From the NCBI GenBank assembly GCA_015478655.1, contig JADMIJ010000005.1, positions 1-64,000 on the forward strand: a stretch of 64,000 nucleotides of DNA, written 5' to 3'. A program made the translations under genes and the position numbers. Below, in pieces: positions 15,199 to 62,953 of this stretch. A model generated the notes under the pieces. That model had not been told where the DNA came from, did not search any database, and was given only the letters and a program-made list of their open reading frames with translations. The stretch comes from Acidimicrobiales bacterium. Lineage in GTDB: Bacteria > Actinomycetota > Acidimicrobiia > Acidimicrobiales > RAAP-2. Each line of letters opens with the position of its first letter. Position 1 is the stretch's first letter.

Positions 15199-15995
15199 CG
15201 CACGCCGGGGAAGTCGGGCGAGCGGCGCTCCTTGAACGCCGCCATCCCCTCGGCCATCTCGGGAGAGGTGGCCGCCATGGCCTGGGCCTGGCCCTCCCGC
15301 TCGAGCGACTCGGGCAACGATGTCTCGAAACTGGAGTTGAGCAGCACCTTGGACAGGCCGAGGGAGCGGGTCGGACCCGCGGCCAGGCGGACGGCCAACT
15401 CGGAGGCTCCGGCGGCCAACTCGTCCGGTGTGGGGACGCACCGGTAGGCGAGGCCAAGGCCCACAGCTTCCGCCCCGCCCACCTTGTCGCCGAGCATCAC
15501 CATCGCCTTTGCCTTGGGCAGACCGACCAGACGAGGCAGGAGGTAGGCCCCACCGGCGTCGACCACCAGCCCCCAACGGGCGAACGACCAGACGAAGGTG
15601 GTCTGCTCACAAGTAAGCACGAAATCGCACGCCAGGGCCAAGTGGGCCCCCGGGCCGACGGCCGTGCCGTTGACGGCGGCAACCGTCGGCTTGTCGAGCT
15701 CCCACAGTTCGCGGATGAACGCCTGCACGCCCACCCGGAGGGCCTCGCTGGTGGTCCGGGGATCGAAGCCGGCGCCCCCGGCGGATCCCACGGTCGACTG
15801 CCGGAGGTCCATGCCCGAGCAAAAGGCGTCGCCCACGCCGGTGATGAGCAGCGATCTGACCCGGCTGTCGGCCCGAGCGTCCCGCACCCGGGCCACGATG
15901 TCGTCGCGCATCTCGACGCTCAGGGCGTTCTTGGCCTCGGGTCGATCGAGGGTCAGCCGGGCGACATGGTCGTCACCGACCTCGTAGCGGATCAT
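15195..15995 (-). CDS. Enoyl-CoA hydratase/isomerase, PaaG-like crotonase
   Basis: 266 residues, crotonase fold. Oxyanion-hole segments are FCSGMDL (58-64) and GTAVGPG (110-116). Both hydratase glutamates are missing: the first position is H118 and the second lies in WSFARWG. Instead D146 in LVVDAGGAYLLPRLVG matches the catalytic Asp of PaaG-type isomerases. The likely reaction is double-bond isomerisation of an enoyl-CoA. TACACT lies 6 nt before the ATG with no ribosome site, so the mRNA is probably leaderless. First gene of the 15995-to-12356 cluster. Confidence 0.88.
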   Translation of the reverse strand: MIRYEVGDDHVARLTLDRPEAKNALSVEMRDDIVARVRDARADSRVRSLLITGVGDAFCSGMDLRQSTVGSAGGAGFDPRTTSEALRVGVQAFIRELWELDKPTVAAVNGTAVGPGAHLALACDFVLTCEQTTFVWSFARWGLVVDAGGAYLLPRLVGLPKAKAMVMLGDKVGGAEAVGLGLAYRCVPTPDELAAGASELAVRLAAGPTRSLGLSKVLLNSSFETSLPESLEREGQAQAMAATSPEMAEGMAAFKERRSPDFPGVR

Positions 15996-16001
15996 GGCGT
16001 C

Positions 16002-16007
16002 AGTGTA
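16002..16007 (-). promoter_or_regulatory. Predicted -10 of leaderless promoter (crotonase)
   Basis: TACACT on the minus strand, followed by GACGCC and the ATG at 15995. The same hexamer-spacer arrangement ending in GACGCCATG is found before the SDR starting at 62828. A perfect 6-bp inverted repeat (GGCGTC/GACGCC, 15996-16001 and 16010-16015) flanks the hexamer and could be an operator. Confidence 0.5.
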
Positions 16008-16082
16008 ACGACGCCGACTTTCTCGAATGGGGTGGCCGGCTCAACTACGGTCTGCGCCTGTGCGCCAGAACCCTGTCCGCTC

Positions 16083-17777
16083 ATGAATTCCCCCCTTGTC
16101 TCTCTCGAAGAGGCGGTGGGGCGTCATGTCGAGGCCGGGGATGCCATCCATGTGGTGACGGGGCACTCGCGTTGGACGGCGGCGGCACGCGAGGTGGTGC
16201 GACAGTGGTGGGGTCGCGACCCGCAGTTCACCCTGGTCATGCTCAGCCTGTCCAGCCTCGGAACCGTGCTGTTCCGAGGGAGGCTGCTCAAGCGGGTGGT
16301 GACCGGCTACTCGGGTGACGTCTTCCCCAACTTCACGCCCAACAAGTGGTTCGCGGACGCCTACCTGAGCGGGGAGGTGGAGGTGGAGCACTGGTCGTTT
16401 CTGACCTTCCTCCAACGCCTGGAGGCGGCGGCCCGTGGGCTGCCCGCCGTCACCACCCTTTCGCTCCGTGGCTCGAGCATGGAGGCGAACGAGGGCTTCG
16501 CCGTCGTCGACTCGCCCTTCGGCGGCCAGGTCGGGTTGCTGGCCCCCTACGCACCCGACATCGCCCTCCTCCACGCCCCCCTGGCCGACCGCCAGGGCAA
16601 CGTCGCCCTCAGCCCCCCGCTCCTCGAGGGGGTCTGGGGCGTGCTGGCAGCCCGGCGCGGCGCCATCGTGACGGTGGAGCGCATCGTCGACGACATCCGT
16701 CCCTGGGCCCACCTGGTCAAGGTTCCCGCCCACCGCGTGCTCGCCCTGTGCGAGGTGCCGCTGGGCGCCCATCCCGGCGGCCTGTACACACCTCACCTCC
16801 CGGTCGAGGCGTACGGCGAAGACCTCGAGTTCTGGGAGGAGACCCGGGAGGCCAGCCGCGGGCCGGACTTCGACGCTTGGATCCGGCGCTGGGTGTTGGA
16901 CCCGGCGAACCAGACCGACTACCTCGAACAGCTGGGCCAGGCTCGGACCGCCCGATTGCGCCGTCGGGCCGATCCGGACTCGTGGCGCGACGACGAGGAC
17001 GCCCACCCTCCGGACCTGGACGCACCCGTCGGAGCCTGGGAGAGGGCCGCGGTCTACGGAGCCCGCCATGTCGCCGCCAGGGTCTCGGACGGCGGATTCG
17101 ACGCCGTACTGGCCGGGGCGGGCGTGGCCAACCTGTCGGCCTGGCTGGCCATCCGGACGTCCCGCGATGCCGGGTCTCACGCCGTGCTCACCGCCGAGCT
17201 CGGATTGTGGGGCTACGAGCCCACGCCGGCCGACCCGTTCGTGTTCAATCACCGCACCTTCCCGAGCGCCACCATGGTCAGTGACAGCGAGACGGTGCTC
17301 TCGACGTTGACGGGAGGTCCCGGCACCCGCCTGCTCGGGTGCCTCGGGGCGGCCCAGATCGACCGGCACGGCAACATCAATTCGACGGTGATCCCCGGTC
17401 GGGCCTTCTTGGTGGGGTCAGGCGGGGGCAACGACGTGGCCACGGCCGCCGACGAGGTGGTGGTGGTGGCCACCCTGGCCCCCCGCCGCACCGTGGACGA
17501 GGTGCCCTACATCACCTCACCGGGTGTCAGGGTGCGGGCCCTGGTGACCGACCTGGCCACCTTCGAGCGCGAGGAGGGTGCGTTCGTGTTGACCGCCGTG
17601 CCCGAGGGGCCCGAACCCCTCGAGGAACGCGTCGAGAGGGTCCGCCGGATCTGCGGTTGGGAGGTCACGGTCGCCGACCATGTGGGCGAATTGGGGAACC
17701 CGACCGACGACGAGGTCGAGGCCCTTCGTCGCTGGGATCCACAACAACGCTTCCTGCGCCCCGACCTGCCCGGCTGA
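16083..17777 (+). CDS. Fused alpha/beta CoA-transferase (GctAB/IpdAB-like)
   Basis: 564 residues containing both subunits of a family I CoA-transferase. The N-half (1-290) resembles the alpha subunit (SLEEAVGRHVEAGDAIHVV, FADAYLSGEVEVEHWS, HAPLADRQGNV, VERIV). The C-half (about 320-555) resembles the beta subunit (GAGVANLSAWLAI, LTAELGLWGYEPTPADPFVF, GAAQIDRHGNINST, GSGGGNDVA). Its closest characterised relatives by pattern are glutaconate CoA-transferase and the steroid-ring hydrolase IpdAB, normally two genes. ATG at 16083; TACGGT at 16046-16051 could be its -10. It is divergent from the crotonase operon. Confidence 0.88.
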   Translation: MNSPLVSLEEAVGRHVEAGDAIHVVTGHSRWTAAAREVVRQWWGRDPQFTLVMLSLSSLGTVLFRGRLLKRVVTGYSGDVFPNFTPNKWFADAYLSGEVEVEHWSFLTFLQRLEAAARGLPAVTTLSLRGSSMEANEGFAVVDSPFGGQVGLLAPYAPDIALLHAPLADRQGNVALSPPLLEGVWGVLAARRGAIVTVERIVDDIRPWAHLVKVPAHRVLALCEVPLGAHPGGLYTPHLPVEAYGEDLEFWEETREASRGPDFDAWIRRWVLDPANQTDYLEQLGQARTARLRRRADPDSWRDDEDAHPPDLDAPVGAWERAAVYGARHVAARVSDGGFDAVLAGAGVANLSAWLAIRTSRDAGSHAVLTAELGLWGYEPTPADPFVFNHRTFPSATMVSDSETVLSTLTGGPGTRLLGCLGAAQIDRHGNINSTVIPGRAFLVGSGGGNDVATAADEVVVVATLAPRRTVDEVPYITSPGVRVRALVTDLATFEREEGAFVLTAVPEGPEPLEERVERVRRICGWEVTVADHVGELGNPTDDEVEALRRWDPQQRFLRPDLPG

Positions 17778-28254: not shown

Positions 28255-28316
28255 CAACCGGGTATGCGGCCGGAGCTGCACCACGAATGACCCGAGCCGA
28301 CAATGGCGGAATGGAG

Positions 28317-28703
28317 ATGCGCATGGACGTCAGGTCGATGGAGGACGTGAGCCCGGTCATCGAGCACAATGGGACCACACCGGTGTGGTGGCTCGTTCCG
28401 CCGGGCCAGATGCAGGAGGCCACCGACGGCGGCTTCCTCGAGCTGGTCAGTGAGTGGATCGTCGAGGGCGGTGGCATGGTCGATCCGCACTCCCACCCGA
28501 CCCACGAGTTCTATTACATCGTCGCCGGCCGGGGGATCATGAAGATCGGGGACGAGGAGCGGGAGGTGGGTCAGGGAGACCTGGTGTACACGCCACCGGA
28601 CACCACGCACAGCATCTGGCCCGCGACCAACAACGCGCCGTTGCACGGGCTGGCCTTCGCCATCGGGGTGAAGGGAGCGGGCCCGGTCGACTACACGACC
28701 TGA
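28317..28703 (+). CDS. Cupin-domain protein (paralogue of 51181)
   Basis: About 128 residues, one cupin barrel. Metal ligands are H58, H60 and E64 (PHSHPTHEF) and H98 (TTHSIW). Small cupins of this kind are dioxygenases, isomerases or regulators; nothing here separates them. The start is set by comparison with the cupin at 51181-51570, which begins M-x-M-D in the same register; ATGs at 28311 and 28323 are close alternatives. By eye 64 of the first 100 positions are identical between the two copies. It follows the aldehyde dehydrogenase and is convergent with the kinase-like gene. Confidence 0.82.
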   Translation: MRMDVRSMEDVSPVIEHNGTTPVWWLVPPGQMQEATDGGFLELVSEWIVEGGGMVDPHSHPTHEFYYIVAGRGIMKIGDEEREVGQGDLVYTPPDTTHSIWPATNNAPLHGLAFAIGVKGAGPVDYTT

Positions 28704-46310: not shown

Positions 46311-46742
46311 ATGGGTGACCACGTGTTGTGTTTCGAGGACGTCGCCGAAGGTGACGAAGCCCCCGTGAGGTCGCATGTCCTGAGCCGCACCGACCTGGTC
46401 GCCTATGCCGGAGCATCGGGCGACTTCAATCCCATGCACCACGATGAGGTGAAGGCCACCGCCGCCGGTCAGCCCAGCGTGTTCGGGCACGGGATGTTCT
46501 CGATGGGGTTCCTCGGCTCGGCCATCACCGACTATGTCGGGGTCGGGCACGTCCGCCGGTTCCAGGCCCGCTTCGCCAAGCAGACCTGGCCCGACGAGGT
46601 CCTGCGCACCAAGATCGTCGTCACTGGCAAACGGATGGACGGTGACGAGGCCCTGGTGGATCTCGATGTGCGCTTGCACAATGCCGAGGGCGAGGAGAAG
46701 GTCGTCGGCGAGGCCACCGCCGTGGTCCCGCTGCGCTCCTGA
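46311..46742 (+). CDS. MaoC-type (R)-enoyl-CoA hydratase (HadB-like)
   Basis: 143 residues. The catalytic hotdog motif GASGDFNPMHHD gives D38 and H43; GHGMFSMGFLG and RRFQARFAKQTWPDEVLRT complete the hydratase-2 pattern. It hydrates enoyl-CoA (or dehydrates 3-hydroxyacyl-CoA). AAGGATGGAGG ribosome site. It should pair with the noncatalytic hotdog at 42539 as HadA/HadB-like subunits, with the crotonase and dehydrogenase between them. Confidence 0.88.
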   Translation: MGDHVLCFEDVAEGDEAPVRSHVLSRTDLVAYAGASGDFNPMHHDEVKATAAGQPSVFGHGMFSMGFLGSAITDYVGVGHVRRFQARFAKQTWPDEVLRTKIVVTGKRMDGDEALVDLDVRLHNAEGEEKVVGEATAVVPLRS

Positions 46743-46810
46743 CCGGCCTCTGAGAAGCGGCCGGGCCCGTCCCGAGCGGCGACCCCGTCGGCCGGAGGGC
46801 GCAAGCGCCC
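46743..46810. terminator. Bidirectional terminator hairpins
   Basis: Two GC-rich hairpins in the convergent gap: CCGGCC/GGCCGG (46743-46748 and 46759-46764, 10-nt loop) and GGGCGC-AA-GCGCCC (46797-46810). No T-run, as is common in actinobacteria. Confidence 0.45.
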
Positions 46811-46816
46811 GCGTGG

Positions 46817-47719: not shown

Positions 47720-47834
47720 CATGTCCTCCTGGATCCGATTCCCCATGGCCGTGCACGCTGATGCCGCGACGGAACCGGGGAAGCATGGCCGAAATGCACC
47801 CCTCCCGGCAAGACCGGGTGCACCGTGGGCCGGT

Positions 47835-48710
47835 TCACGGGCGAACGGCAGGGGCCACGGGGTGGTCCCGGACGACCGGCAGGACCTCGTCGGCGAAGCG
47901 CCGGATGGCCTCGATGGCGTCCTTGCCCCTGGCCCAGGGCTTGACCAGGGCCCGTCCCACCCCGGCGTCGGCCAATCGCCGGAGATCGTCTCGGCCGACG
48001 CCCCCGGCCCCGAGGGTGATCTCCACGGTTCCGGGACGCCCCGACTCCTCTCGAAGCTGGGCCAGGCGGGCGGCGGCCGCGGGGATCTGCTCGATGGTGT
48101 GGTTCATGGGGATCCAACCGTCACCCACCAACGCGGCGCGGCGCAGTGCGGCCGGTCCGTCGCCACCGATGTGGAGCGGCGGCCATGGCTGGTGGCTCGG
48201 CTTGGGTTCGAACATCACGGGGGCGAAGTCGAAGAACTCGCCGTGGTGCTCGACCACCGGTTCGCTCCACAGCCGCCGGCACACCTCGATGGCCTCGTCG
48301 ACCCGCCGACCCCGGCTGGCGAAGTCGAGGCCGACGGCCTCCCATTCCGCCTGCAGCCAGCTGGCCCCGATGCCGAACTCCACCCGTCCCCCGGAGACGA
48401 CGTCGAGGGTGGTGACGGCTCGGGCCACGATGAACGGGTGGCGCAGGCCGATGTTGTAGACCTGCGTCCCCAAGTGGATCCGTTCGGTCTGCCCGGCGAG
48501 GAAGCCGAGGTAGGCGAAGACGTCGAAGATCGGGACGTCGGACGGGATGGGGGGGTGGTCGGACCCCGCAAAGGGGCTGCCGTCGGCCGCAACCGGGACG
48601 ACCAGGTGCTCGGGCATCCAGACGGACTCGTAGCCCAACCGGTCGGCCTCACGGGTCGCCTCGGCCCACAGGGCGGGCCTGAGCACTCCGAGCGAGATCC
48701 CGATCTTCAC
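47835..48710 (-). CDS. F420-type luciferase-like oxidoreductase
   Basis: 291 residues, LLM-class TIM barrel. MKIGISLGVLRPALW at the start, SVWMPEHLVVP, IHLGTQVYNIGLRHPFIVARAVTTLDVVSGGRVEFGIGASW, and PPLHIGGDGPAALRRAALVGDGW. F420 or flavin hydride transfer is expected. GTG at 48710 with GGAGGTGG 5 nt upstream decides the start. It is divergent from the RidA-RraA pair across a 330-bp gap. Confidence 0.88.
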   Translation of the reverse strand: MKIGISLGVLRPALWAEATREADRLGYESVWMPEHLVVPVAADGSPFAGSDHPPIPSDVPIFDVFAYLGFLAGQTERIHLGTQVYNIGLRHPFIVARAVTTLDVVSGGRVEFGIGASWLQAEWEAVGLDFASRGRRVDEAIEVCRRLWSEPVVEHHGEFFDFAPVMFEPKPSHQPWPPLHIGGDGPAALRRAALVGDGWIPMNHTIEQIPAAAARLAQLREESGRPGTVEITLGAGGVGRDDLRRLADAGVGRALVKPWARGKDAIEAIRRFADEVLPVVRDHPVAPAVRP

Positions 48711-49040
48711 CGAACCCACCTCCGACGTGATGGGCGTGCCGGATCCGGAGGCCCGGGCTCCGACGACTCGCCCCGGATCGGTCTGCGCTGCGCCCCTCGC
48801 GCCCACCAGGCGATCATACGCCGGGAGGGGGATCACTGACATCAGCGTCATACAACCCGTCGACGAGGGCGGTAGCATCAGCGCGGAACGCCGGGCACCG
48901 CGCCGGCATGGTTGCCGGAGGAAGCTGTTGACGCCTTGTCCCGTCGAGAAGTACCGAGCGCTGGCGGGGGCCATCGTCCCGGTCCACGCCCCGACCTCCG
49001 TCCGGCCCGCCGGCCGGCGTGACCCCGGCCGGGGGCACGG
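48711..49040. other. Divergent regulatory region (LLM / RidA)
   Basis: 330 bp. It holds the inverted repeat TGAC-ATCAGC-GTCA at 48837-48850, a TAGCAT -10 candidate at 48873-48878 on the plus strand, and a possible small leader ORF from 48928. The repeat lies about 23 bp before the hexamer, where a regulator could act. Confidence 0.45.
48837..48850. promoter_or_regulatory. Inverted repeat upstream of RidA-RraA
   Basis: TGACATCAGCGTCA, half-sites TGAC and GTCA separated by 6 bp, 23 bp upstream of TAGCAT (48873-48878). A regulator site is inferred. Confidence 0.35.
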
Positions 49041-49044
49041 TTGA
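48928..49044 (+). CDS. Possible 38-residue leader ORF before RidA
   Basis: TTG-initiated frame with a good GGAGGA ribosome site 5 nt upstream (48917-48922). The peptide is basic and Pro/Gly-rich with no recognised family. Its TGA overlaps the RidA TTG (TTGA), suggesting translational coupling. It may be only a leader. Confidence 0.3.
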   Translation: MTPCPVEKYRALAGAIVPVHAPTSVRPAGRRDPGRGHG

Positions 49045-49529
49045 CGGCGTCCGGTCGGGTTCGGGCGCGACTGATCGAGCTCGATCTCGAGCTCTACGGG
49101 CCGCATCCGCCCCACGATCCGCTGGACGCGGTGGTGGTGCACGGCGGGGTTGCCCGCACCTCTGGCCAGCTCCCGAGGATCGACGGCGTCCTGACCTGTT
49201 CGGGTGTGCTGGGGCGGACGGTGACCGTCGCCGAGGGCAGGCGGGCCGCGGAAGTCTGCGCCCTCAATGCGCTGTCGGTGCTGGAGGTGGCCCTCGGCAC
49301 CCTCGATCGGGTGGAGCGGGTGCTGTCGGTGACCGCCTACGTGGCCTCCGACCCCGACTTCCACGAACAACCGGCGGTGGTGGACGGCGCCAGCGCGGTG
49401 CTGTTCGACGTGTTCGGCGAGGCCGGGCGGCACACACGGTCGGCCATCGGCGTGGCGGCCCTTCCCCGGGGTGGCGCAGTGGAGATCGAGGTGATCGTCG
49501 CCATCACCGGGGACGGAGGGGTGTCGTGA
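49041..49529 (+). CDS. RidA/YjgF-family protein
   Basis: 162 residues. The family pattern is visible: VVVHGGVARTSGQLP, an AAEVCALNALSVLEVALGTLDRV helix, and HTRSAIGVAALPRGGAVEIEVIVAI with R133 at the substrate-binding place. Canonical RidA deaminates reactive imines to ketoacids. The start is TTG at 49041, overlapping a leader ORF stop. It precedes an RraA-like gene by 27 bp, with which it is probably cotranscribed. Confidence 0.85.
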   Translation: MTASGRVRARLIELDLELYGPHPPHDPLDAVVVHGGVARTSGQLPRIDGVLTCSGVLGRTVTVAEGRRAAEVCALNALSVLEVALGTLDRVERVLSVTAYVASDPDFHEQPAVVDGASAVLFDVFGEAGRHTRSAIGVAALPRGGAVEIEVIVAITGDGGVS

Positions 49530-49556
49530 TGAGGCAGAGCGAGAGGGAGATGGTCG

Positions 49557-50216
49557 ATGGGTGACGAATCGGTGGGCAACCCGACGGGGCAGTCGGACAC
49601 GTCCGAGCAGCTGCAACGGATGGGCTCGGCCACCTTGGGGGAGTCGGGAGCACTGACCCTGCCACCCCGGTTGCGACCGGTCTGGCCGGGTGCCGCCCTG
49701 GCCGCCCCGGCCTTCCCCGTCATGTGCACACCCGGAGACAACCTCGCCCTGCACGTGGCGGTCACCCATGCCCCCGATGGCTCGGCCCTGGTGGTGGACG
49801 TCGGCGAGGTGGCCGAACGCGGCTACTGGGGGGAGGTGCTGACCACGGCGGCCGAGGCGCGGGGGATCGTCGGCCTGGTCATCGACGGCGGCGTGCGCGA
49901 CGTGGACGCGCTGCAGTCCCATGGGTTTCCGGTCTTCTCGTCCCTCGTCTCCCTGCCCGGGGCGACCAAGCAGTCCCGTGGCCGGGTGGGAGCGCCCATC
50001 CGGTTCGCCGGGGCGCCGGTGACGATGGGCGACTGGGTGGTGGGTGACGTCGACGGCGTCGTCATCGTCCCTGGCGACGCCCTCGGCGCCGTGCTGGCCG
50101 CCGCCCGGAGCCGGACGGCCAAGGAGGCCGGCTACTTCGAGGAGTTGCGGGCCGGGGTGACCACCGTCGAGCTTCTCGGCCTGGACACTTCGGCGGTGGT
50201 CGTGGGCCCGGGCTGA
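49557..50216 (+). CDS. RraA-like aldolase/decarboxylase
   Basis: 219 residues of the RraA fold. CTPGDNLALHVAV (58-69) and VIDGGVRDVDAL with R114/D115 are the metal- and substrate-binding motifs of 4-hydroxy-4-methyl-2-oxoglutarate aldolase/oxaloacetate decarboxylase type members. It may cleave a 2-oxo or hydroxy acid; the RNase-E-regulator role of RraA is unlikely with this motif. It follows RidA. The ATG at 49557 overlaps no neighbour, with a GAGGGAGATGG site upstream. Confidence 0.82.
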   Translation: MGDESVGNPTGQSDTSEQLQRMGSATLGESGALTLPPRLRPVWPGAALAAPAFPVMCTPGDNLALHVAVTHAPDGSALVVDVGEVAERGYWGEVLTTAAEARGIVGLVIDGGVRDVDALQSHGFPVFSSLVSLPGATKQSRGRVGAPIRFAGAPVTMGDWVVGDVDGVVIVPGDALGAVLAAARSRTAKEAGYFEELRAGVTTVELLGLDTSAVVVGPG

Positions 50217-50231
50217 CCCGACCGTCGGGTC
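50215..50231. terminator. Hairpin between RraA and dehydrogenase
   Basis: GACCCGA-CCG-TCGGGTC, a perfect 7-bp stem with a 3-nt loop, directly after the RraA stop in the convergent gap. No T-run. Confidence 0.45.
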
Positions 50232-50241
50232 ACCGGCCCGG

Positions 50242-51180
50242 TCAGGCCCGGACGAGGTGCTCGGGGGTGCGGCCGGCCAGCACGTCACAGATGGCCTGGC
50301 TGGCCATCCGGGCCATGGCCGTCCTGGTCTGGGTGGAGGCGCTGCCGATGTGGGGCAGGAGCACCGTTCTCGGTGCCGCCAGCAGATCCGGGTCGATGGC
50401 GGGCTCCTCGGAGTACACGTCGATGCCGGCGGCGAAGATGTCGCCCTTCTCGAGGGCCCGGGCCAACGCGGCTTCGTCCACGACGGCGCCGCGGGCGGTG
50501 TTCACGAGCACGGCCGTGGGCTTCATGAGCGCCAGCTCCTCGGCCCCGATGAGATGCCGCGTGGACGGGGTGAGCGGGACGTGCAGGCTCACGGTGTCCG
50601 AGCGGGCCAGAAGCTCGGGGAGGGCGGCAACGTAGCCCGGCGCCCCGGTGTCCGTCCGGGAGTGGTGGAGGACCTCCATCCCGAACCCCTCGGCCCGGCG
50701 GGCGACGGCCCGGGCGATCCTCCCGCACCCCACCAGGCCGAGGCATGTGCCGTGCACGTCGCGGCCCAGGTGGTCGGTGATGCCCCATCCCTGCCACCGG
50801 CCGGCCCGCAGGTCCCGCTCGGCGTCTGAGGCCAGCCGGCCGGCGGAGAGAATCAACAGGAAGGCCAGGTCGGCGGTGGTCTCGTCGAGGACTCCGGGGG
50901 TGTTGCAGACGACGATGCCGAGCGCAGCTGCTTCGGCCACGTCCACATTGTCGTAGCCGACGGCGGCCACGCTGACCACGCGGAGCCGGGCCGCCGCCCC
51001 CGCTCGCAGGACGCGCTCGTCGATCCGGTCGGTGAGCATGCACAGGACGCCGTCGACGTCTGCGACCAGGCCGGCCAGGTCGGGTGCGGGCCCCTCCGCC
51101 AACACGATCTCATGGCCGGCGTCGAGGATGGGGTCGGTCCCGCCCTCGGGGACGGGCCGGGTGAGCAGGACCCGCGCCAC
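50242..51180 (-). CDS. D-2-hydroxyacid dehydrogenase (glyoxylate reductase-like)
   Basis: 312 residues. Rossmann motif GCGRIA at 151-156, catalytic R230 (NTARGAVVDE), E259 (DVYSEEP) and H277 (LPHIGS). It reduces 2-oxoacids such as glyoxylate or hydroxypyruvate with NAD(P)H. GTG start at 51180 directly follows the cupin stop (TGAGTG) on the same strand, so cupin and dehydrogenase are cotranscribed. With the AllA-like gene nearby, glyoxylate is an attractive substrate, by inference. Confidence 0.9.
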   Translation of the reverse strand: MARVLLTRPVPEGGTDPILDAGHEIVLAEGPAPDLAGLVADVDGVLCMLTDRIDERVLRAGAAARLRVVSVAAVGYDNVDVAEAAALGIVVCNTPGVLDETTADLAFLLILSAGRLASDAERDLRAGRWQGWGITDHLGRDVHGTCLGLVGCGRIARAVARRAEGFGMEVLHHSRTDTGAPGYVAALPELLARSDTVSLHVPLTPSTRHLIGAEELALMKPTAVLVNTARGAVVDEAALARALEKGDIFAAGIDVYSEEPAIDPDLLAAPRTVLLPHIGSASTQTRTAMARMASQAICDVLAGRTPEHLVRA

Positions 51181-51570
51181 TCAGTGGTTGGTGTAGTCGA
51201 TGGGGCCGGCGTCCGGAGTGCCGATGGCGAAGCAGAAGCAGTGGATGGCGGCGTTGTCGCTGACGGGCCGCAACGTGTGGACGGCGTCCGGTGGGATGTG
51301 GATGAGGTCGCCCTGGCCGACCGGCCGCTCCTCCTGCCCGATCGTCATGATCCCCCGGCCCCGGAGCACGTAGTAGAACTCGTGCGTGGGGTGGGAATGG
51401 GGCTCGACCCGACCTCCCCCCGGCACCTCGAACTCGTTCACCAGCTCGAGGAACCCCCCCTTGGTGACGTCCCGGAGCTCCCGGGGATTGACCATCCACC
51501 ACACGGGCACGGTGCCGTTGTGCTCGACGACCGGCGCGGCGTCCTCGATGTTGCGTATGTCCATCGTCAT
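51181..51570 (-). CDS. Cupin-domain protein (paralogue of 28317)
   Basis: 129 residues. The same cupin motif and register as the gene at 28317: H58, H60 and E64 in PHSHPTHEF and H98. The start ATG at 51570 has GGGAGGTGG 8 nt upstream, confirming the M-x-M-D start. It is followed by the D-2-hydroxyacid dehydrogenase. Role unknown; two near-identical cupins in separate operons suggest a common ligand or regulator. Confidence 0.85.
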   Translation of the reverse strand: MTMDIRNIEDAAPVVEHNGTVPVWWMVNPRELRDVTKGGFLELVNEFEVPGGGRVEPHSHPTHEFYYVLRGRGIMTIGQEERPVGQGDLIHIPPDAVHTLRPVSDNAAIHCFCFAIGTPDAGPIDYTNH

Positions 51571-51636
51571 GGCCGTGGCCACCTCCCGTTCAGTCGGTTC
51601 ATTCGGACTCGGCGTGCGCAATCGGTAGAGTGCATC

Positions 51637-51652
51637 CTGATACCGGTGTCAG
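51637..51652. promoter_or_regulatory. Palindromic operator between cupin and AllA-like genes
   Basis: CTGATACCGGTGTCAG is palindromic at 14 of 16 positions. It lies between divergent starts at 51570 and 51677. A related sequence occurs at 58228-58243. Confidence 0.5.
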
Positions 51653-51676
51653 GTTAGATCAGGTCGGGGAGGGTGC

Positions 51677-52180
51677 ATGGGTGGCGCGGTTGGCCGGATC
51701 AGGCCGGAAGCACTGACACCGGAGGCATGGGCCCCGTTCGGCTGGGTTCCGGTGTGCGACACCGACCCGGAGGACGGAACCGGGCGATTGTCGTTCGCCT
51801 GGGACGACGTCCACGTCAATCTCATCGGCCATCGCCGCGACGAGGTGCCGGCCGTCGACGGGGGTCTGCGGTGCGAGGTCCTCTTCCGGCACGCCACCCA
51901 TACGCAGGTGGTGATGCCTCTCGATGTGGCCGCGGTGGTCGTGGTCGCACCGGCGGGAGCGGATCTGGACAGCCCCGGAGGGTGGGAGGCGATCCGTGCG
52001 TTCACCCTGCCCGTACTGTCGTCCGTGGTGCTGCACCGCGGGACCTGGCACTGGGGCCCCTATCCGGTCGACGCCGAGTCGGTCCAGCTCTTCAACGTCC
52101 AAGGGCTCCGTTACCGCGAGGACAACGACAGCATCGACCTGGCGGCCCTGGGGGAGTCCGTGGACGTGTTGCTCGTCTGA
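51677..52180 (+). CDS. Ureidoglycolate lyase-like (AllA) protein
   Basis: 167 residues resembling the AllA cupin-like lyases: PEALTPEAWAPFGWV at 9-23, CEVLFRHATHTQVVMPLD with HTQ, and VVLHRGTWHWGPYPV with the His pair. AllA splits ureidoglycolate into glyoxylate and urea. GGGGAGG site before the ATG. The substrate is inferred. The glyoxylate product could be handled by the D-2-hydroxyacid dehydrogenase on the other strand. Confidence 0.75.
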   Translation: MGGAVGRIRPEALTPEAWAPFGWVPVCDTDPEDGTGRLSFAWDDVHVNLIGHRRDEVPAVDGGLRCEVLFRHATHTQVVMPLDVAAVVVVAPAGADLDSPGGWEAIRAFTLPVLSSVVLHRGTWHWGPYPVDAESVQLFNVQGLRYREDNDSIDLAALGESVDVLLV

Positions 52181-52216: not shown

Positions 52217-52987
52217 TCAGCCGGGTGAGGAGGGGAAGAGGGCCCGGTGGACCATGGTCGTCAGCGTGTCGAGAGCGGCCTCATCGGTCGGCTCGCCCAT
52301 GAAGTCCCGCATGAAATGAAATCGGTCGAGCATGGCGATGACTGCCATCCCGGCCACTTCGGGGTCGAGGTCCCCGGTCGGGCCGGCGGAGGCGATCCGC
52401 GACGCCATGGCGTGGATGTGGGCGGCCACCATCCTCCGGTTCTGGTCACCGACGACGGGGTCGATGGAGGCCAGGTCGGTCCACGACCGGAACAGGGGCG
52501 CGTACCGGGACCACAGTGCTGAATAGTCCGCCACCCACTGGCGCAGGTTGTCCCAGCTCTCGATATCGAGCTTGCTGCCCGCCTCCGAGACGGCGTAGAG
52601 GCTCGAGGCCTCGGAGGTCGCTTCGATGGTGAGGGCCCGGATCAGGTCCTCCTTGTTCGAGAAGTACAGATAGAAGGTGCCATGGGAGGTGTTGGCGATG
52701 TCGACGACGTCTTTGACCCGTGTGCCGTGGTACCCCCGCTCGTCGATCGCCTCCATGGCGGCGTCGAGAAGATTGCGCATGGTTTGCCGGCCCTGGCTTC
52801 GCAGCGCCCGCTTGCTGGCCGGAACGCCGACCGCCGAGGCATCCGCCGGCGCTCCGTCCACCAGCGCGCCATCCCCAGGTTGCGGGGGAGTTGAGGGCGG
52901 CCGCGGGTTACGCGACGCCGACCCGGTTGCCGGCCCCCTCGGGGGCCGTCGGGGCCGATCGGGTCCCTTGCCTGCGGTTTTGGCCAT
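52217..52987 (-). CDS. TetR-family regulator
   Basis: 256 residues. Residues 1-55 are Pro/Arg/Ala-rich and disordered; the HTH is at about 65-110 (QTMRNLLDAAMEAIDERGYHGTRVKDVVDIANTSHGTFYLYFSNKEDLI); the rest is a helical ligand-binding domain. The long basic N-tail is unusual for TetR. It follows the importer gene livF by 30 bp on the same strand and may autoregulate the importer operon. ATG at 52987; internal starts after the tail are possible. Confidence 0.85.
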   Translation of the reverse strand: MAKTAGKGPDRPRRPPRGPATGSASRNPRPPSTPPQPGDGALVDGAPADASAVGVPASKRALRSQGRQTMRNLLDAAMEAIDERGYHGTRVKDVVDIANTSHGTFYLYFSNKEDLIRALTIEATSEASSLYAVSEAGSKLDIESWDNLRQWVADYSALWSRYAPLFRSWTDLASIDPVVGDQNRRMVAAHIHAMASRIASAGPTGDLDPEVAGMAVIAMLDRFHFMRDFMGEPTDEAALDTLTTMVHRALFPSSPG

Positions 52988-53017
52988 TGGAGGCTCGGAG
53001 TCGTCCGTTCGCCGCCC

Positions 53018-53803
53018 CTACCCGGGCGACGGTCCGCCTGTGCGACTGGTCATGAGCTGCTCCATTGCTTCCTTCGCCTGACCCGCGGGCCCCGAATACG
53101 CCACCGTGCCGTGCTCGAGGATCACTGCCGTCTGGGCCAGCGCCACGGCCCGGTCCACCTGCTGCTCGACCACCAGCAGGGCGGTGCCGGCCTCGTTGAT
53201 CCTCCGGAGTCCCTCATAGACCGTTTCGATGACCACGGGGGCCAGTCCGAGCGAGAGCTCGTCGGCCACGAACAGACGGGGTGGCGCCACCAGGACCTTG
53301 GCCAGGGACAGCAGCCGTTGCTGACCTCCCGACAGCGTGCCCCCGCGCTGCTTGCGGCGCTCGCCCAGCACGGGGAACCCCTGGTAAGCCCGGTCGAGGG
53401 CGTCCTGCACCTGCTTGCGCCCGAGCCGTTGCCGAAAGGCCAGCACCAGGTTCTCCTCGACGGTGAGGTTGGCGAAGATCCCGCGGCCCTCGGGAACGTG
53501 GGCCATGCCGGCCCGGGCGATCCGGTAGGCCGCCTGTCCGGTGACGTCCTTCCCGCCCGTGCGGATGGCACCGCTGGTGCTGGGCATCAGCCCGCTCACC
53601 ACCCGGGCCACCGTGGACTTGCCCGCACCGTTGGAGCCGAGCAGCGCGGTGATGCCACCGGCGGGCACGGCAAAGGAGATGTCGAAGAGGGCGCGATAGG
53701 GCCCGTAGGCCGCGCTCACGTGGTCCACCTCCAGGGCATGTGGAGCGCTGTCGGGCGCGGGCCGGTTGCCGTTGGGACTGGCGGTGCCCGCGGTCTCGAT
53801 CAT
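53018..53803 (-). CDS. livF: Branched-chain-type ABC importer ATPase LivF
   Basis: 261 residues. Walker A GSNGAGKST at 56-64, signature LSGGQQRLLSLAKVL, Walker B LFVADELSLGLAP, then VEQQVDRAVALA with the His-loop region EQQ. The HVPEGRGIFANLTVEENL motif after the Q-loop is LivF-specific. The first 22 residues are an extra polar N-tail. Energises import with LivG. Overlaps livG by 4 bp (ATGA). Confidence 0.93.
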   Translation of the reverse strand: MIETAGTASPNGNRPAPDSAPHALEVDHVSAAYGPYRALFDISFAVPAGGITALLGSNGAGKSTVARVVSGLMPSTSGAIRTGGKDVTGQAAYRIARAGMAHVPEGRGIFANLTVEENLVLAFRQRLGRKQVQDALDRAYQGFPVLGERRKQRGGTLSGGQQRLLSLAKVLVAPPRLFVADELSLGLAPVVIETVYEGLRRINEAGTALLVVEQQVDRAVALAQTAVILEHGTVAYSGPAGQAKEAMEQLMTSRTGGPSPG

Positions 53804-54618
53804 TCGCTGATCCCGAGATAGGCGTCGCGCACCCGGGGGTCGGCCATCACCTCGTCGAACGTGCCCTCGGCCACCCGGCTGCCGAGGTCCATGACAATGG
53901 TCCGGTCCACCACCGCGCCGACCATGGTGAGGTCGTGCTCGACCAGGAGCACGGCCATGCCGTGCTCCTTCTGCAGGGTGCGGAGCACGCCGGCCAGCTC
54001 CTTGGTCTCCTGCACGTCGAGACCCGAGGAGGGCTCGTCGGCCAACAGGAGCATCGGGTCCCCGACCAGGGCCCGGGCCAGCTCGACGAGCCGGCACAAA
54101 CCGAGGCCGAGGGCGCTCACCGGGGTGTCACCCCGATCAGCGATGCCGATGAGCTCGAGCACGTTGGCCACCCGGGCCAGCTCGTCGGCGGCCGGCTTGC
54201 TCTTGTGGCACAGGTCACGCCACAGCCGCCCGTCACCGCGCCGGGCTCGTTCGGCCACGAGAAGGTGTTGTCGCACGGTCATGTCCGGGAAGACCTCGAC
54301 CCGCTGGTAGGTCCGCCCGATCCCGAGCCGGGCCCGTTGGTAGACGGCCAACCCGTCGATGGCCGTGCCGGACAGCTCGACCCGCCCGCGCTCGGGGCGG
54401 AGCTGCCCGCAGATGCAATTGAACAGGGTGGTCTTACCCGCCCCATTGGGGCCGACCAGGCCGACGCTCTCGCCGGCCGACACCGTCAAGCTCATGTTGC
54501 TGACGGCGGCGATGCCTCCGAACGACTTGGAGACGTCGGTGACTTGTAGCAGCGGTCGCCCGGGCGGTCCCGCTCCGGCCCCGTTCTGAGCCACGTCGAC
54601 TCGCCAACCGTCGGTCAT
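53800..54618 (-). CDS. livG: Branched-chain-type ABC importer ATPase LivG
   Basis: 272 residues. Walker A GPNGAGKTT, Q-loop and GIGRTYQRVEVFPDMTVRQHL, the signature region SALGLGLCRLVELARAL (a nonstandard form of LSGGQ), Walker B LLLADEPSSGLD and VEHDLTMVG. RTYQ near residue 102 is the LivG hallmark. It overlaps livHM and livF by 4 bp each. The ~20-residue N-tail is polar. Confidence 0.93.
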   Translation of the reverse strand: MTDGWRVDVAQNGAGAGPPGRPLLQVTDVSKSFGGIAAVSNMSLTVSAGESVGLVGPNGAGKTTLFNCICGQLRPERGRVELSGTAIDGLAVYQRARLGIGRTYQRVEVFPDMTVRQHLLVAERARRGDGRLWRDLCHKSKPAADELARVANVLELIGIADRGDTPVSALGLGLCRLVELARALVGDPMLLLADEPSSGLDVQETKELAGVLRTLQKEHGMAVLLVEHDLTMVGAVVDRTIVMDLGSRVAEGTFDEVMADPRVRDAYLGISE

Positions 54619-56678
54619 GGCCCGGCTCTCCCCGGCCGCTCGGAGGCCGAGGGGTCGATGCGAACCTGTCCGACGGCCGTCGGACTCGGGCCCGCTTCCG
54701 ACGGGGCCGTAACCGGCGGCCCGAGCGACACCGGTACCGCGGCGTGGCGGTCACCGAAGAGCAGTTGTTCCATGCGGAGCGTCCATTTGCTCTTCTGGAA
54801 CTCGAGGATGCCCTCGGGGTGGTTGGCGTACTGGAGCGCACCGAAGGCGAAGAGGACGATGACCAGGCTCTCGCCGCCCACCCGGGCGGGCAGGTAGGTC
54901 AGGAGCTGTTGGATGACCACAAAGGCGAAGCCGGCATTGATGGCCCCCTCCACCGTGCTGACCCCGGTGGTGACCACGATGACGACGAAGACCAGGGAGA
55001 ACTGGTAGTTGAACTGGGCGGCGTTGACGGTCTGCTGCTGGAGGATGAGCACGGTGCCGCCCAGTCCGGCCACCATCCCCGAGAGGGCGAAGATCAGTAC
55101 CCGCTGCCAGGTGAGGTTGATGCCGAGGCCGGCCGCCGCCGTCTCGCTGCCTCGCATGGCCGACAGGTACTGGCCCGTGGTGCCGCTGCGCACCAGCAGT
55201 ACGCCGATGGTGCAGACCACCAGTACCAGAATGCTGAGAACGAACAGGGCGTGCCCGTTGGGGTTGAAGATGCCGAGCCCTATCCACTTGGACTGCACAC
55301 TCAGGGCCGCGCCGTTGCTGATCGTGCCCTGGGTGAACACCGAGTTGTCGAAGAAGAGTGCGGCGGCGATGGTCATCAGCGCCAGGCCGAGTCCTTTGAG
55401 CCGGAGTGAGACGAGAGCCAGCACCACGGCCACGGCGCCGGCCAGCAGCATCCCGAACACGGCGCCGGCCAGGAGGCTCAGTCCGAGATGGTTGGCCAGC
55501 TGGGCGGCGGTGAACGCGCCCACGCCGGCCAGGGTGGCCTGGCACAGCGAGAGCTGGCCACCCATTCCGGTGATGAGGGTGATGGACAGGAAGATGATGG
55601 AGTAGGCCAGGCCGGCGTTGAACACGCTCTCCCAGGTGGCGGGGATCCAGGTGAGCATGGACACGCAGAACGCGGCCAGCAGCACATACCAGGCCGGGCG
55701 GATGACCCGGTTGAGTTGCGGGGCCCGCACGGCAGCGGTGGTCGGCGGTGTCGGTGGGTCGACCGAGGCCAGGGGGTCCTTCGATTCGTCCAGGCTCCGC
55801 ATGCCCGGCACGAACAGCAGGGCGCCCACCAGGACGATGAACGGCAGCGATGGGAGCACTGCGGCCGACAGTGTGCTGGAGGAGGGAAGGTACCCTTGCA
55901 GCAACGTCGAGGCCACGCCCATGAGGATCCCGACCAGGGCGGCGAGGGGCAGGGAGCGGAGGGACGCCCAGGCCGCGGCGGCGAAGGCGGCGACCAACAG
56001 GGTGGCGTAGTCCTGGGCCTGGAGTTGCCCGTAGATGGGTGCCAGCATGACCCCGGCCAAACCGGCCAGGAAACTCGAGATGGCCCAGGCCGTGGCCACC
56101 ACGGCACTCGAATTGACCCCGTCCAGCGCAACCAGCCGCCGGCTCTCGACCGCACCCCGCATCTGCAGCCCGAGGTTGGTGAAGCGCATGAGGACGACGA
56201 GGGCGACGAGCACGACTGCCGTGATGACGAACGAGCTCAGGTAGATCCCGTTGATGGGCTGGCTCACCACCCGGAAGTAGACGGTGTTCGGGTCGAACAG
56301 GATGCTCGGCGAGTTGAACTGGTTCTGGTTGCCGAAGAGCACCGGCAGTAGAGCCGGGATGCCGACGAACAAGCTGATCCCCATGACTAGCTTGGCGGTG
56401 GTGTTGGTGCTCGGGATCTTGCGGAACAGCAATCGGTCGAAGATCAGTCCGAGGGCGGGGGCCAGGATGACCACCGACAGGAAGAAGGCTAGCCAGATGG
56501 GCATGTGCTCGTTCTGGACCAGCTTGGTATAGACGAAGGCCGAGGTGTAGGCCTGGGCACCGAAGGCGAAGTTGAACACCCCGGTGGCCTGGTAGGTGAG
56601 CACCAGGCTGACGGCCACGATGGCGTAGGTGCAGCCGTAGGGGACGCCGGGGATGGCGAAGCCGAGGAAGTGCTCCAC
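54615..56678 (-). CDS. Fused LivH-LivM permease
   Basis: 687 residues. N-half (about 1-290) is LivH-like with GVPYGCTYAIVAVSLVLTYQATGVFNFAFGAQ, and the C-half (about 330-620) is LivM-like with GGQLSLCQATLAGVGAFTAAQLANHLG. Each half has 8 or so membrane helices, joined by a polar linker (DESKDPLASVDPPTPP). The tail after residue 625 is cytoplasmic. Normally two genes; here one chain. It is 41 bp after the binding-protein stop. Confidence 0.92.
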   Translation of the reverse strand: MEHFLGFAIPGVPYGCTYAIVAVSLVLTYQATGVFNFAFGAQAYTSAFVYTKLVQNEHMPIWLAFFLSVVILAPALGLIFDRLLFRKIPSTNTTAKLVMGISLFVGIPALLPVLFGNQNQFNSPSILFDPNTVYFRVVSQPINGIYLSSFVITAVVLVALVVLMRFTNLGLQMRGAVESRRLVALDGVNSSAVVATAWAISSFLAGLAGVMLAPIYGQLQAQDYATLLVAAFAAAAWASLRSLPLAALVGILMGVASTLLQGYLPSSSTLSAAVLPSLPFIVLVGALLFVPGMRSLDESKDPLASVDPPTPPTTAAVRAPQLNRVIRPAWYVLLAAFCVSMLTWIPATWESVFNAGLAYSIIFLSITLITGMGGQLSLCQATLAGVGAFTAAQLANHLGLSLLAGAVFGMLLAGAVAVVLALVSLRLKGLGLALMTIAAALFFDNSVFTQGTISNGAALSVQSKWIGLGIFNPNGHALFVLSILVLVVCTIGVLLVRSGTTGQYLSAMRGSETAAAGLGINLTWQRVLIFALSGMVAGLGGTVLILQQQTVNAAQFNYQFSLVFVVIVVTTGVSTVEGAINAGFAFVVIQQLLTYLPARVGGESLVIVLFAFGALQYANHPEGILEFQKSKWTLRMEQLLFGDRHAAVPVSLGPPVTAPSEAGPSPTAVGQVRIDPSASERPGRAGP

Positions 56679-56719: not shown

Positions 56720-58078
56720 TCACGTTCCCGGGGTCCCGGCGGGGGGCGTTGCCAACACGGGGTTCGTCAGGCTGACGTCCTTGGCGAAGCAAACGATCGT
56801 CTGTGGCGGCTTGGCCACGGCGGGGACGAACTTGGTCCCGCTCACCTTGACGAAGGCCGAGCAGCCCGGAAACGAGGTGAGCGTGTTCGTGTGGAGCTTC
56901 GTCCAGTCAACGGTCGACGAGACGCCGCCGGCGGTGAAGTTGGTGAGCGTATTGATCTGGTTGATGACGTTGGCCTGGGTCAGGTTGTTCCCGGCCATTC
57001 TGATGCCCTGGACCAGCAAGGCGGCCGACTCCCATCCCTGGAGGGCCAGGAGCGAGTAGGCGTTCGCAGGCGAGTACTTGTTCATGGCGGCCAGGTACTG
57101 GTCCATGCCCGGGTACTTCCCCGGGTAGGCCGTGGCCACCTGGAACGGGACATTGCCGTTGAGATTGAAATAGACGCCCTGCATGAGATTGCTGTACTGG
57201 CTGAGGAGGGCATTGTCGTAGCCGCTGAACCACAGCTGGTGGACATTGAGGCCGTACTGCTTGATGGCCCGGGCCAGGGTGACATTGTCCGAGCTCTGCA
57301 TGCAGGTGAAGACGAAGTCCGCCCCTGCCTGCTGCATCCGCTGGACGGCCGGGGTGTAGTCGCCCCCGAGCGACTCGTCGAGGTTGGTGTAGACCACCTT
57401 GATCCCGGCCGCCTGGAGCTTCTGGGCGCTGGTGTGGCAGGCGGCGTAGGACGAGGTGATGGCCGGCCCATAGCTCATGACCACCGCCGACTTGGCGTTG
57501 AGCTGCTTCATCAGGTAGGCGATGCTCTGGGCCCCGTAGTTGTAGTCCTGGGTCGAGCCGCCGGCCCCGAAGAGATTCGGATCCGGCGTCCAGTTGCCAC
57601 TGGTGTTGTAGCCGAAGGTCGGGGTCTTGGTCTGGACGAAGAGGCCGGGTGTGAAGAAGAAGGTGGAGATGAAGGCGGCGAACACCCCGTCCTGCTGGAT
57701 GAGGGTGTGCGACAGCTGGTTGAAGGAGGTGCCGGCGTCATCGAGGTTGGCGGTCAGGACGATCTTGCGTCCGCCGACACCGCCGTTGGCGTTCACGGTG
57801 TTGAGATAGGCCTGGATCCCGGGGACGAAGGAGGCAAAATCTGCGGCGATGGACCCGGTGAGGGAGGCGATCGAACCCACACTGATTTGGGTGGCCGTGA
57901 CTCCAGGCGCTGGCCCACTGGCGGTGCCCGACGTGGACGACGAACCCGAGGACGGTTTGGCGGTGGTGGTGCTGGGGGAGGTCGAACTGGAGCAACTGGC
58001 GATCAGTGCCGAGGCGAGCAGTACCGCGCCGATGGCGGCCGGAACTCGTACCTTTGATCCACCCGTGCGGTGTCGCAT
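56720..58078 (-). CDS. ABC importer substrate-binding lipoprotein (LivK-like)
   Basis: 452 residues. A lipoprotein signal with lipobox LIASC (lipidated C29), then a Ser/Thr-rich linker, and a type-I periplasmic-binding-protein fold: QISVGSIASLTGSIAADF, GGVGGRKIVLTANLDD, QLNAKSAVVMSYGP, and GADFVFTCMQSSDN. It delivers a small ligand (amino acid, amide or organic acid) to LivHM. The ATG at 58078 has a GGGGGA site. First gene of the importer operon; a TAGGTT hexamer 35 nt upstream may be its -10. Confidence 0.92.
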   Translation of the reverse strand: MRHRTGGSKVRVPAAIGAVLLASALIASCSSSTSPSTTTAKPSSGSSSTSGTASGPAPGVTATQISVGSIASLTGSIAADFASFVPGIQAYLNTVNANGGVGGRKIVLTANLDDAGTSFNQLSHTLIQQDGVFAAFISTFFFTPGLFVQTKTPTFGYNTSGNWTPDPNLFGAGGSTQDYNYGAQSIAYLMKQLNAKSAVVMSYGPAITSSYAACHTSAQKLQAAGIKVVYTNLDESLGGDYTPAVQRMQQAGADFVFTCMQSSDNVTLARAIKQYGLNVHQLWFSGYDNALLSQYSNLMQGVYFNLNGNVPFQVATAYPGKYPGMDQYLAAMNKYSPANAYSLLALQGWESAALLVQGIRMAGNNLTQANVINQINTLTNFTAGGVSSTVDWTKLHTNTLTSFPGCSAFVKVSGTKFVPAVAKPPQTIVCFAKDVSLTNPVLATPPAGTPGT

Positions 58079-61919: not shown

Positions 61920-62828
61920 TCAGGTGCGCTTGCCCAGCAGCGGATGGCTGGGCATGCCCACCGGTTGCAGGTGTTGACCGAGCACCTCGTGGAAGTGGGC
62001 CGCGACCTCGTCCGGGGTCCATCCCCCGTCCTGCCACATGGTGGCGATCTGGCGGGGGGTCTGGAAGAGGGTGTACCCGTAGCCGGTCCGGCCCAGGACC
62101 TGGCCGTTGACGAAGGACGCCGCCTCGGAGGCCAGGAAGGCCACCATAGGGGCATTGAGGGCGGGGTCCTCGCTGGCCGGCGGCTCGGATCCCTCGTAGA
62201 GGCCCTCGGTCATCCGGGTGGTGCCCGACGGGGCCAGGGCGTTGACGGTGATCCCGTACTTGCCGAGCTCGACGGCCCACACGAAGGTCATGCCCATGAT
62301 GGCCGCCTTGGCCGCTCCGTAGTTGGTCTGGCCGAAGTTTCCCCGCAGGCCGGCGGACGACGTCATGTTCACGATGCGGCCGTACCCGGCCTCCTTCATG
62401 TGCGGGGCGGCGTGACGGGTGGCGTTGAAGGTTCCCTTCTGGTGCACGCCGATGACGGCGTCGTAGTCCTCCTCGGTCATCTTCAGCAGCGAGCGGTCGC
62501 GCACGATGCCCGCATTGTTGACCAGGATGTCGACCTGTCCGAAGGCGTCCATGGCCGTGTCGACGATCCGGCCTGCAGCCTCGAAGTCGCTCACCGAGTC
62601 GTGGCTGACCACGGCCTGACCCCCGGCCGCGGCGATCTCTTGGCAGACCTGGGCGGCGGGGTCATCCTCCGCGCCCATGGCGCCGTTGCCGTCACGACCG
62701 TCGAGACCGACCCCGATGTCGTTGACCACCACCTTGGCCCCCTCGGAGGCCAGGCTCAGGGCCACCTGGCGGCCGATCCCCCTGCCGGCTCCGGTGACGA
62801 TGGCAACGCGGTTGTCGAGGAGGCTCAT
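61920..62828 (-). CDS. SDR dehydrogenase (HSD17B4/MFE-like)
   Basis: 302 residues. TGAGRGIG near residue 12, VNDIGVGLDGRDGNG (the MFE-type insertion), NNAGIVRDRSLLKMTEED and SSAGLRGNFGQTNYGAAKAA with Ser, Tyr and Lys. It should be an NAD-dependent (3R)-hydroxyacyl-CoA or hydroxysteroid dehydrogenase. TAGTCT lies 6 nt before the ATG, so the mRNA is probably leaderless. A relative is at 46817, but with different context. Confidence 0.9.
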   Translation of the reverse strand: MSLLDNRVAIVTGAGRGIGRQVALSLASEGAKVVVNDIGVGLDGRDGNGAMGAEDDPAAQVCQEIAAAGGQAVVSHDSVSDFEAAGRIVDTAMDAFGQVDILVNNAGIVRDRSLLKMTEEDYDAVIGVHQKGTFNATRHAAPHMKEAGYGRIVNMTSSAGLRGNFGQTNYGAAKAAIMGMTFVWAVELGKYGITVNALAPSGTTRMTEGLYEGSEPPASEDPALNAPMVAFLASEAASFVNGQVLGRTGYGYTLFQTPRQIATMWQDGGWTPDEVAAHFHEVLGQHLQPVGMPSHPLLGKRT

Positions 62829-62840: not shown

Positions 62841-62953
62841 GCCAGTGGGCCAGTTCACTGACTCTGCCGTCAGAGGCAAACGGTGCCCCCGCCAACGCTC
62901 CCGTCTCGGAGGTCAGGCGACGGCGGCGTCCCTTCCCGGCCCACGAGATCCGC

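Follow-up and report, generated by a model that had tools for sequence, protein, structure and literature searches.

A co-inherited gene set around an AllA-like protein of uncultured Actinomycetota and its candidate operator

Which compound is handled by a cluster that joins an AllA-like protein to an aldolase, a dehydrogenase and a cupin? The question is raised by six genes at positions 47835–52180 of the 64,000-nucleotide stretch analysed here (contig JADMIJ010000005.1 of an Acidimicrobiales bacterium, positions 1 to 64,000), which we call the window. In order, they encode an F420-dependent LLM oxidoreductase (minus strand), a RidA-family protein and an RraA-like aldolase (plus), a D-2-hydroxyacid dehydrogenase and a single-domain cupin (minus), and the AllA-like protein (plus). 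Only 27 bases separate the RidA and RraA-like genes, and the cupin and dehydrogenase genes lie end to start. The initial annotation had named all of these except the LLM gene, and Pfam and NCBIfam matches place its five genes where it had them. It had read them as one pathway for a ureide or nitrogenous organic acid, ending in glyoxylate. The single pathway stood, and the ureide substrate did not. This is a real, co-inherited and probably co-regulated pathway; the explanation that we prefer, with a probability of roughly 0.4 for the whole of it, is a carbon-catabolic module with a shared operator, acting on a sugar-acid-like compound and not on ureidoglycolate.

The window comes from contig C103, in a genome of 4.47 Mb (347 contigs, 93% complete). 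By contig search, its closest named relatives are mostly Acidimicrobiaceae metagenome-assembled genomes.

Inheritance and gene order

The genes were followed through 172 genomes of the family, from 21 genera. The AllA-like protein had a strong match in 19 of them, with two more matches weak (E about 1e-4), and the cupin (E 1e-35 or better) was found in exactly the same 19, the match being to a more distant form in G003 (63%) and G091 (59%). RraA (1e-45) was present in 18 of the 19, missing from G005, and nowhere else in the family. Fifteen of the 19 have RidA (1e-45), and none of the 153 other genomes does. The dehydrogenase (1e-90) was found in 12 of the module genomes and in five family genomes without the module. 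Within the window's own genus the AllA-like protein, cupin, RraA and RidA occur together in 5 of 14 genomes, and the other nine have none of these. Hypergeometric values for co-occurrence ran from 1e-25 to 3e-10; they are naive, ignoring kinship, and serve only as a guide.

Gene order gave a similar picture. A scan of the contig collection yielded 62 AllA-like loci, nearly all in Actinomycetota metagenome-assembled genomes and one in a genome labelled Acidobacteriota. Synteny was counted at 61 of these (L101 gave no usable match), many on short contigs. At 54 loci the cupin gene lay in divergent orientation no more than 700 bases from the AllA-like gene; a cupin at least 55% identical was found at 58, RraA at 38 and the dehydrogenase at 37. 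All four genes were together at 27 loci, 26 of them with the window's arrangement, and at 24 of the 42 loci having at least 4.2 kb of upstream sequence. Companion genes were less frequent: RidA at 14 loci, a Liv-type importer at 13, ThuA at 10, TetR at 9 and the LLM gene at 1. In deep lineages the core sits amid housekeeping genes (amylase, PHP-domain, MurJ, BacA). In the plasmid collection the AllA-like protein had no near relatives and the cupin a single match, at 36%.

The core is thus the cupin and AllA-like genes first, then RraA and the dehydrogenase, with RidA a frequent companion in the family. We have very little doubt that these genes form one co-inherited unit, as first proposed; independent scattering among related genomes was looked for in the 172-genome co-occurrence and not seen. 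The LLM gene was considered as a core member and rejected, a close homologue being present at just one of the 61 other loci; it is probably accessory.

The AllA-like protein and its partner enzymes

The predicted structure of the AllA-like protein (mean pLDDT 95.8) matched AllA of P. putida (2bdr, Z 18.8 over 151 residues, root mean square deviation 2.6) and of E. coli (structures 1yqc and 1xsq; Z 16.8 to 1yqc). AllA is described in PMC3793230 as nickel-dependent and releasing urea. The AllA-like protein fell far under all NCBIfam ureidoglycolate-lyase cut-offs, its best score being 30.6 bits against 212. We compared it with eight reference AllAs encoded beside purine genes, namely the E. coli protein and copies on plasmids, next to alc, puuE, uraD or uricase. 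Identity to these was 18–26%, and a tree split the two groups with support of 100/100. The family alignment held the window's protein and those of 58 of the 62 loci (omitted were L042, near-identical to L041; L046 and L058, with run-on frames; and L101, a fragment); a second alignment, A1, covered 18 of the 19 strong-match genomes, omitting G003 for its run-on frame. Residues H72, Q77 and H125 are common to both groups. The Glu two residues before the first-motif His ("E-x-H") is present in all eight purine-linked AllAs but in none of the 59 AllA-like proteins, which have Phe (22), Tyr (22) or Asn (15) there. The "VDR" of AllA is "NVQG" in the AllA-like protein, and no purine genes were seen among its recurrent neighbours. 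The protein has an AllA fold but, judged by its residues, is not a canonical ureidoglycolate lyase; a lack of lyase residues, which had been named as a check on the ureide idea, is largely what we see.

Genome content points the same way. No allantoinase scored over the TIGR03178 cut-off in any of the 172 family genomes, although two control genomes passed (PuuE-type allantoinase was not part of this search); the best score in the window's own genome was 268 bits against 358. Nor did that genome contain a ureidoglycine aminohydrolase or AllC (TIGR03214, TIGR03176), searches for which the controls were positive. An allantoicase search was likewise empty (0 of 172), but its controls were silent too, so it is uninformative. 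Since both genome content and the AllA-like residues argue against a ureide pathway, we reject it: the module very probably does not serve ureide catabolism. For the same reasons, and given its gene context, purine use should not be inferred for such a protein from a PF04115 match, which on its own may earn it the label "ureidoglycolate lyase". The pathway may still end in glyoxylate: the dehydrogenase is glyoxylate-reductase-like, and aldol cleavage could yield glyoxylate.

Weaker fold matches, below the AllA values, were to the DUF4867 cupins of sulfoglycolysis (SftX/SqvD; 9gyy and 9gyz) at Z 13.1 and 12.1. These have an AllA-type fold and occur in sugar pathways, as the AllA-like protein may. 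Their function is unexplained in PMC11968277, where ring opening or mutarotation is proposed and the metal ligands are given as E97, H99, E103 and H150. E97 would map to the Phe/Tyr/Asn position, so that the Glu-His-Glu-His ligand set of DUF4867 contrasts with an AllA-like protein lacking the first Glu. The two share 12–14% identity, and no sulfoglycolysis genes were identified around the AllA-like module, unlike the context of DUF4867. AllA-fold proteins gain another non-purine context, beside that of DUF4867. No KdgF entry was among the matches listed in the fold search, which excludes nothing.

Of the other enzymes, the dehydrogenase has both of its Pfam domains and keeps R230, E259 and H277, which we take to be the catalytic Arg, Glu and His, in all 12 rows of an alignment (the window and 11 of 37 dehydrogenases). 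Among solved structures its best relatives are glyoxylate reductases of archaea (6bii, 5aov, 2dbq) and a probable 2-ketogluconate reductase (9m0t). The cupin retains H75, H77, E81 and H115 in every one of 47 rows (the window plus 46 of the 58 cupin matches), and its fold search gave generic matches that are not diagnostic. In the RidA-family protein, R133 falls on the Arg of the "RS" motif in E. coli RidA, presumably the catalytic residue. With 24.2 bits against the TIGR00004 cut-off of 106.25, the protein belongs to the Rid family but is not a canonical RidA; its closest solved relative is the Rid family protein PA0814 (9bk9, E 1.5e-41).

RraA has 3noj as its closest solved relative (E 8e-33). 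Across 36 rows (the window and 35 of 38 RraA matches) the pyruvate/metal and catalytic residues G92, R114, D115, R186 and E190 are invariant. By the 3noj alignment, at a constant offset of 9, they are G101, R123, D124, R195 and E199 of the P. putida 4-hydroxy-4-methyl-2-oxoglutarate/4-carboxy-4-hydroxy-2-oxoadipate (HMG/CHA) aldolase, in which Arg-123 is essential according to PMC5065237. Because these residues, including the essential Arg, are kept, aldolase or decarboxylase chemistry is likely for RraA. It is aldolase-like without being filed as LigK, scoring under both curated LigK/CHA aldolase cut-offs (151.2 bits against 304.5 and 159.1 against 179) and sitting in a different gene context.

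A palindrome shared among promoters

The divergent promoter between the cupin and AllA-like genes carries the palindrome CTGAC-N6-GTCAG, with TAGA-type elements on either side; 20 promoter sites give the consensus GTAGA-CTGACG-C--CGTCAG-C-TAGA. In AllA-like promoters the palindrome is exact at 16 of 62 loci and has at most one mismatch at 20, as against 0.94% of random 240-base stretches. CTGAC was the best of 60 permuted arms (20 loci, 16 exact); the runner-up reached 11, and the seven next-best arms had no exact match. When the spacing was varied from 2 to 12, a spacing of 6 gave 20 loci and every other spacing at most 4. With the AllA-like proteins grouped at 70% identity, 11 of 44 groups have the palindrome. 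A longer palindrome, TGAYACCGGTRTCA, occurred in the window no more often than expected by chance, and the conserved core was adopted instead.

A survey of relatives' loci, some of which overlap (e.g. L057 and L130), found 76 sites in 1.09 Mb, 40 of them upstream of genes. The palindrome preceded CoA-transferase genes in 8 of 9 cases, SDR in 5 of 10, class II aldolase in 5 of 11, TetR in 3 of 6 and zinc dehydrogenase in 2 of 8. It was found before none of 40 RraA and none of 41 dehydrogenase genes, both being second in operons or apart. The window's own genome has eight exact places, compared with one for a reversed control. One lies where a Gfo/Idh/MocA gene starts, a gene that shares 74% identity with its counterpart in the relatives' clusters; one precedes an acyl-CoA dehydrogenase gene, four are inside open frames, and one stands in front of an MFS/ABC importer gene, itself preceded by FGGY-kinase and LarA-like genes.

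This recurrence before CoA-transferase, SDR, class II aldolase and Gfo/Idh genes suggests a regulon, and a shared operator with its regulon is, in our judgement, highly probable. For the reader of the palindrome, the adjacent TetR-family regulator is a candidate with about even chances; many palindrome-bearing loci have no such TetR nearby.

On contig C88 of genome G000 (L149, 268–7025) we noted genes for a 3-hydroxyisobutyrate-dehydrogenase-like protein, a Cgl0159-like aldolase, an FGGY kinase and a LarA-like protein, followed by an exact palindrome before the fused MFS/ABC importer gene.

Substrate, rival explanations and neighbouring features

Gene contexts in relatives bear on the substrate. 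At L048 a second dehydrogenase, GH4, a sugar ABC importer and a SorC regulator precede the AllA-like, cupin and dehydrogenase genes, all in one direction. In G091 (L130, L057), the cupin and AllA-like genes are separated by genes for GH4, FGGY kinase, class II aldolase, Gfo/Idh, ThuA and aldehyde dehydrogenase, and the context of L069 is similar. This sugar-type context, which includes a MalK-type importer, runs across L048, L057/L130 and L069; ThuA and a class II aldolase accompany the module in other clades also. The class II aldolase of the window's relatives scores over the L-fuculose-phosphate aldolase cut-off. Because of these contexts and this match, a sugar-acid-like substrate is the favoured prediction, at slightly less than even odds.

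In the pathway that we propose, promoters sharing CTGAC-N6-GTCAG would drive the module, with the adjacent TetR as their candidate reader, and the Liv-type importer would take up a sugar-acid-like or hydroxy-oxo acid. By analogy with the chemistry of AllA, DUF4867 and KdgF, the AllA-like protein and the cupin could then act as metalloproteins that open or rearrange a cyclic form to an open-chain 4-hydroxy-2-oxo acid. RraA, whose active-site residues are in place, would cleave this acid to pyruvate and an aldehyde or oxo acid, a substrate assignment that is predicted. The dehydrogenase, by its family, would interconvert a 2-oxo acid and its D-2-hydroxy acid, and RidA, with its key residue present, may clear imine or enamine by-products. 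The importer operon noted in the initial annotation is real, a Liv-type ABC operon that includes the TetR gene and spans about 52217–58078 on the minus strand. Its linkage to the module recurs in many relatives (13 of 18 in a second count, besides the 61-locus count above), so it may supply the substrate, as had been suggested. Its substrate-binding protein had no solved relative at E 1e-10, and structures gave no clue to the substrate.

Several observations weigh against a sugar-acid module with a common operator. The explicit sugar-type loci (L048, L057/L130 and L069) form one clade (95/95) and so count as one event. The window's genome has no close class II aldolase homologue (best match 36%), for which reason this aldolase was rejected as a required part there. 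The importer is of amino-acid/organic-acid type, and there are CoA-transferase, thiolase and acyl-CoA genes in the vicinity. The dehydrogenase occurs in five module-free genomes and is below threshold in seven module genomes. Finally, the palindrome is missing from 42 of 62 AllA-like promoters, and its count in the window is weak, with 7 found and 3.3 expected, which is not significant.

The CoA-transferase, thiolase and Liv importer make an organic-acid or aromatic substrate possible. The best surviving rival is a lower pathway for aromatic or lignin-derived compounds, in which the cupin would open a ring or tautomerise, RraA would act as an aldolase of HMG/CHA type, and CoA-transferase and thiolase would finish. 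LigK-type aldolases are indeed the nearest curated models of RraA, and 3noj its nearest structure; relatives carry the CoA-transferase and thiolase, and at three loci an SDR like coniferyl-alcohol dehydrogenase scores over its cut-off. We nonetheless think this unlikely, as RraA stays under the LigK cut-offs, no enzyme for ring hydroxylation or classical ring cleavage is a recurrent neighbour of the module, and the linkage to GH4, FGGY kinase, ThuA and Gfo/Idh is left unexplained. Less likely again is metabolite repair or housekeeping, with RidA, the dehydrogenase, RraA and the two cupin-fold proteins clearing reactive 2-oxo acids and imines instead of using a substrate from outside. Roles of this type are known for Rid proteins and glyoxylate reductases, and the deep lineages retain only the core amid their housekeeping genes, but the patchy, all-or-none presence (19 of 172 genomes; 5 of 14 in the genus) is typical of catabolism, as are the importer, regulator and multi-site regulon. 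A ureide pathway, with the AllA-like protein as ureidoglycolate lyase, the dehydrogenase reducing glyoxylate and the cupin or amidohydrolases replacing earlier steps, would suit the PF04115 membership and AllA fold, the glyoxylate-reductase-like dehydrogenase and the nearby RidA and importer, but the missing Glu, the missing ureide enzymes and the lack of purine neighbours make it very improbable.

We return, then, to a catabolic module for a sugar-acid-like compound. All of its parts belong to known families; no description of how the genes are combined, of the altered AllA-fold residue or of the operator was found in the open-licence papers searched. We tentatively propose an undescribed catabolic regulon of uncultured Actinomycetota, in which a non-ureide branch of PF04115 (Glu to Phe, Tyr or Asn) and a dedicated cupin might form a two-part ring-opening or isomerising step feeding an RraA-type pyruvate aldolase, all under a CTGAC-N6-GTCAG operator whose conservation extends from Acidimicrobiaceae to distant lineages of actinobacteria. 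With the co-inherited set and the shared operator, there is now a list of genes by which a carbon-use pathway of uncultured actinobacteria from soil and fresh water can be tested.

Table 1. Features of the window: module genes, importer operon, possible regulon members and palindrome sites
Feature	Position	Strand	Match or remark
F420-dependent LLM oxidoreductase	47835..48830	-	TIGR03619, 224 bits against cut-off 167; unnamed in the initial annotation
RidA-family protein	49041..49529	+	PF14588/PF01042; TTG start, start uncertain
RraA-like class II pyruvate aldolase	49557..50216	+	PF03737, 128 bits; closest solved relative 3noj
D-2-hydroxyacid dehydrogenase, glyoxylate-reductase-like	50242..51180	-	PF02826/PF00389
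Single-domain cupin	51181..51621	-	PF07883; complete HxH...E...H metal motif
AllA-like protein	51677..52180	+	PF04115 fold, 42 bits against gathering score 23
TetR-family regulator	52217..52987	-	PF00440; homologue at 9 of the 61 loci
Liv-type ABC importer, two ATPases and fused permeases	53018..56678	-	Open reading frames; homologous LivHM in 13 of 61 loci
Lipoprotein substrate-binding protein of importer	56720..58078	-	PF13458; start picked from translation
SDR oxidoreductase, probable regulon member	61920..62828	-	75–78% identical to SDR beside class II aldolase and RidA in G056, G003, G005
CoA-transferase, possible regulon member	15999..17777	+	56% identical to module-linked CoA-transferase of relatives
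Second cupin copy	28287..28703	+	60% identical; behind aldehyde dehydrogenase and amidohydrolase genes
Operator-like palindrome, 1 mismatch	51637..51652		Divergent cupin/AllA-like promoter
Operator-like palindrome, 1 mismatch	48836..48851		Between LLM gene and RidA
Palindrome, 1 mismatch	15856..15871		242 bases before CoA-transferase homologue
Exact palindrome	62858..62873		Upstream of SDR

Two amidohydrolases reported elsewhere in the window were confirmed. The first (PF07969, 25139–26623) is followed on the plus strand by an aldehyde dehydrogenase and the second cupin copy, the three genes being consecutive over 25139–28703; extra cupin copies were also noted in G001, G002, G003, G004, G015 and G063. 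The second (PF04909, 62954–63886) adjoins the exact palindrome at 62858, and its sole NCBIfam match, to L-fucono-1,5-lactonase, is far under the cut-off (66 of 400 bits). A run of acyl-CoA dehydrogenase, enoyl-CoA hydratase, MaoC and SDR genes (39919–47746) adjoins the module; of this run, G015 retains only MaoC, with LLM, beside the module. Following the zinc dehydrogenase in several clusters is a conserved protein of about 150 residues with no Pfam or NCBIfam match (L029, 16433–16879, and relatives). In several Acidimicrobiaceae (L040, L041, L042, L044, L045) the module comes with a gene for a sulfatase of about 800 residues.

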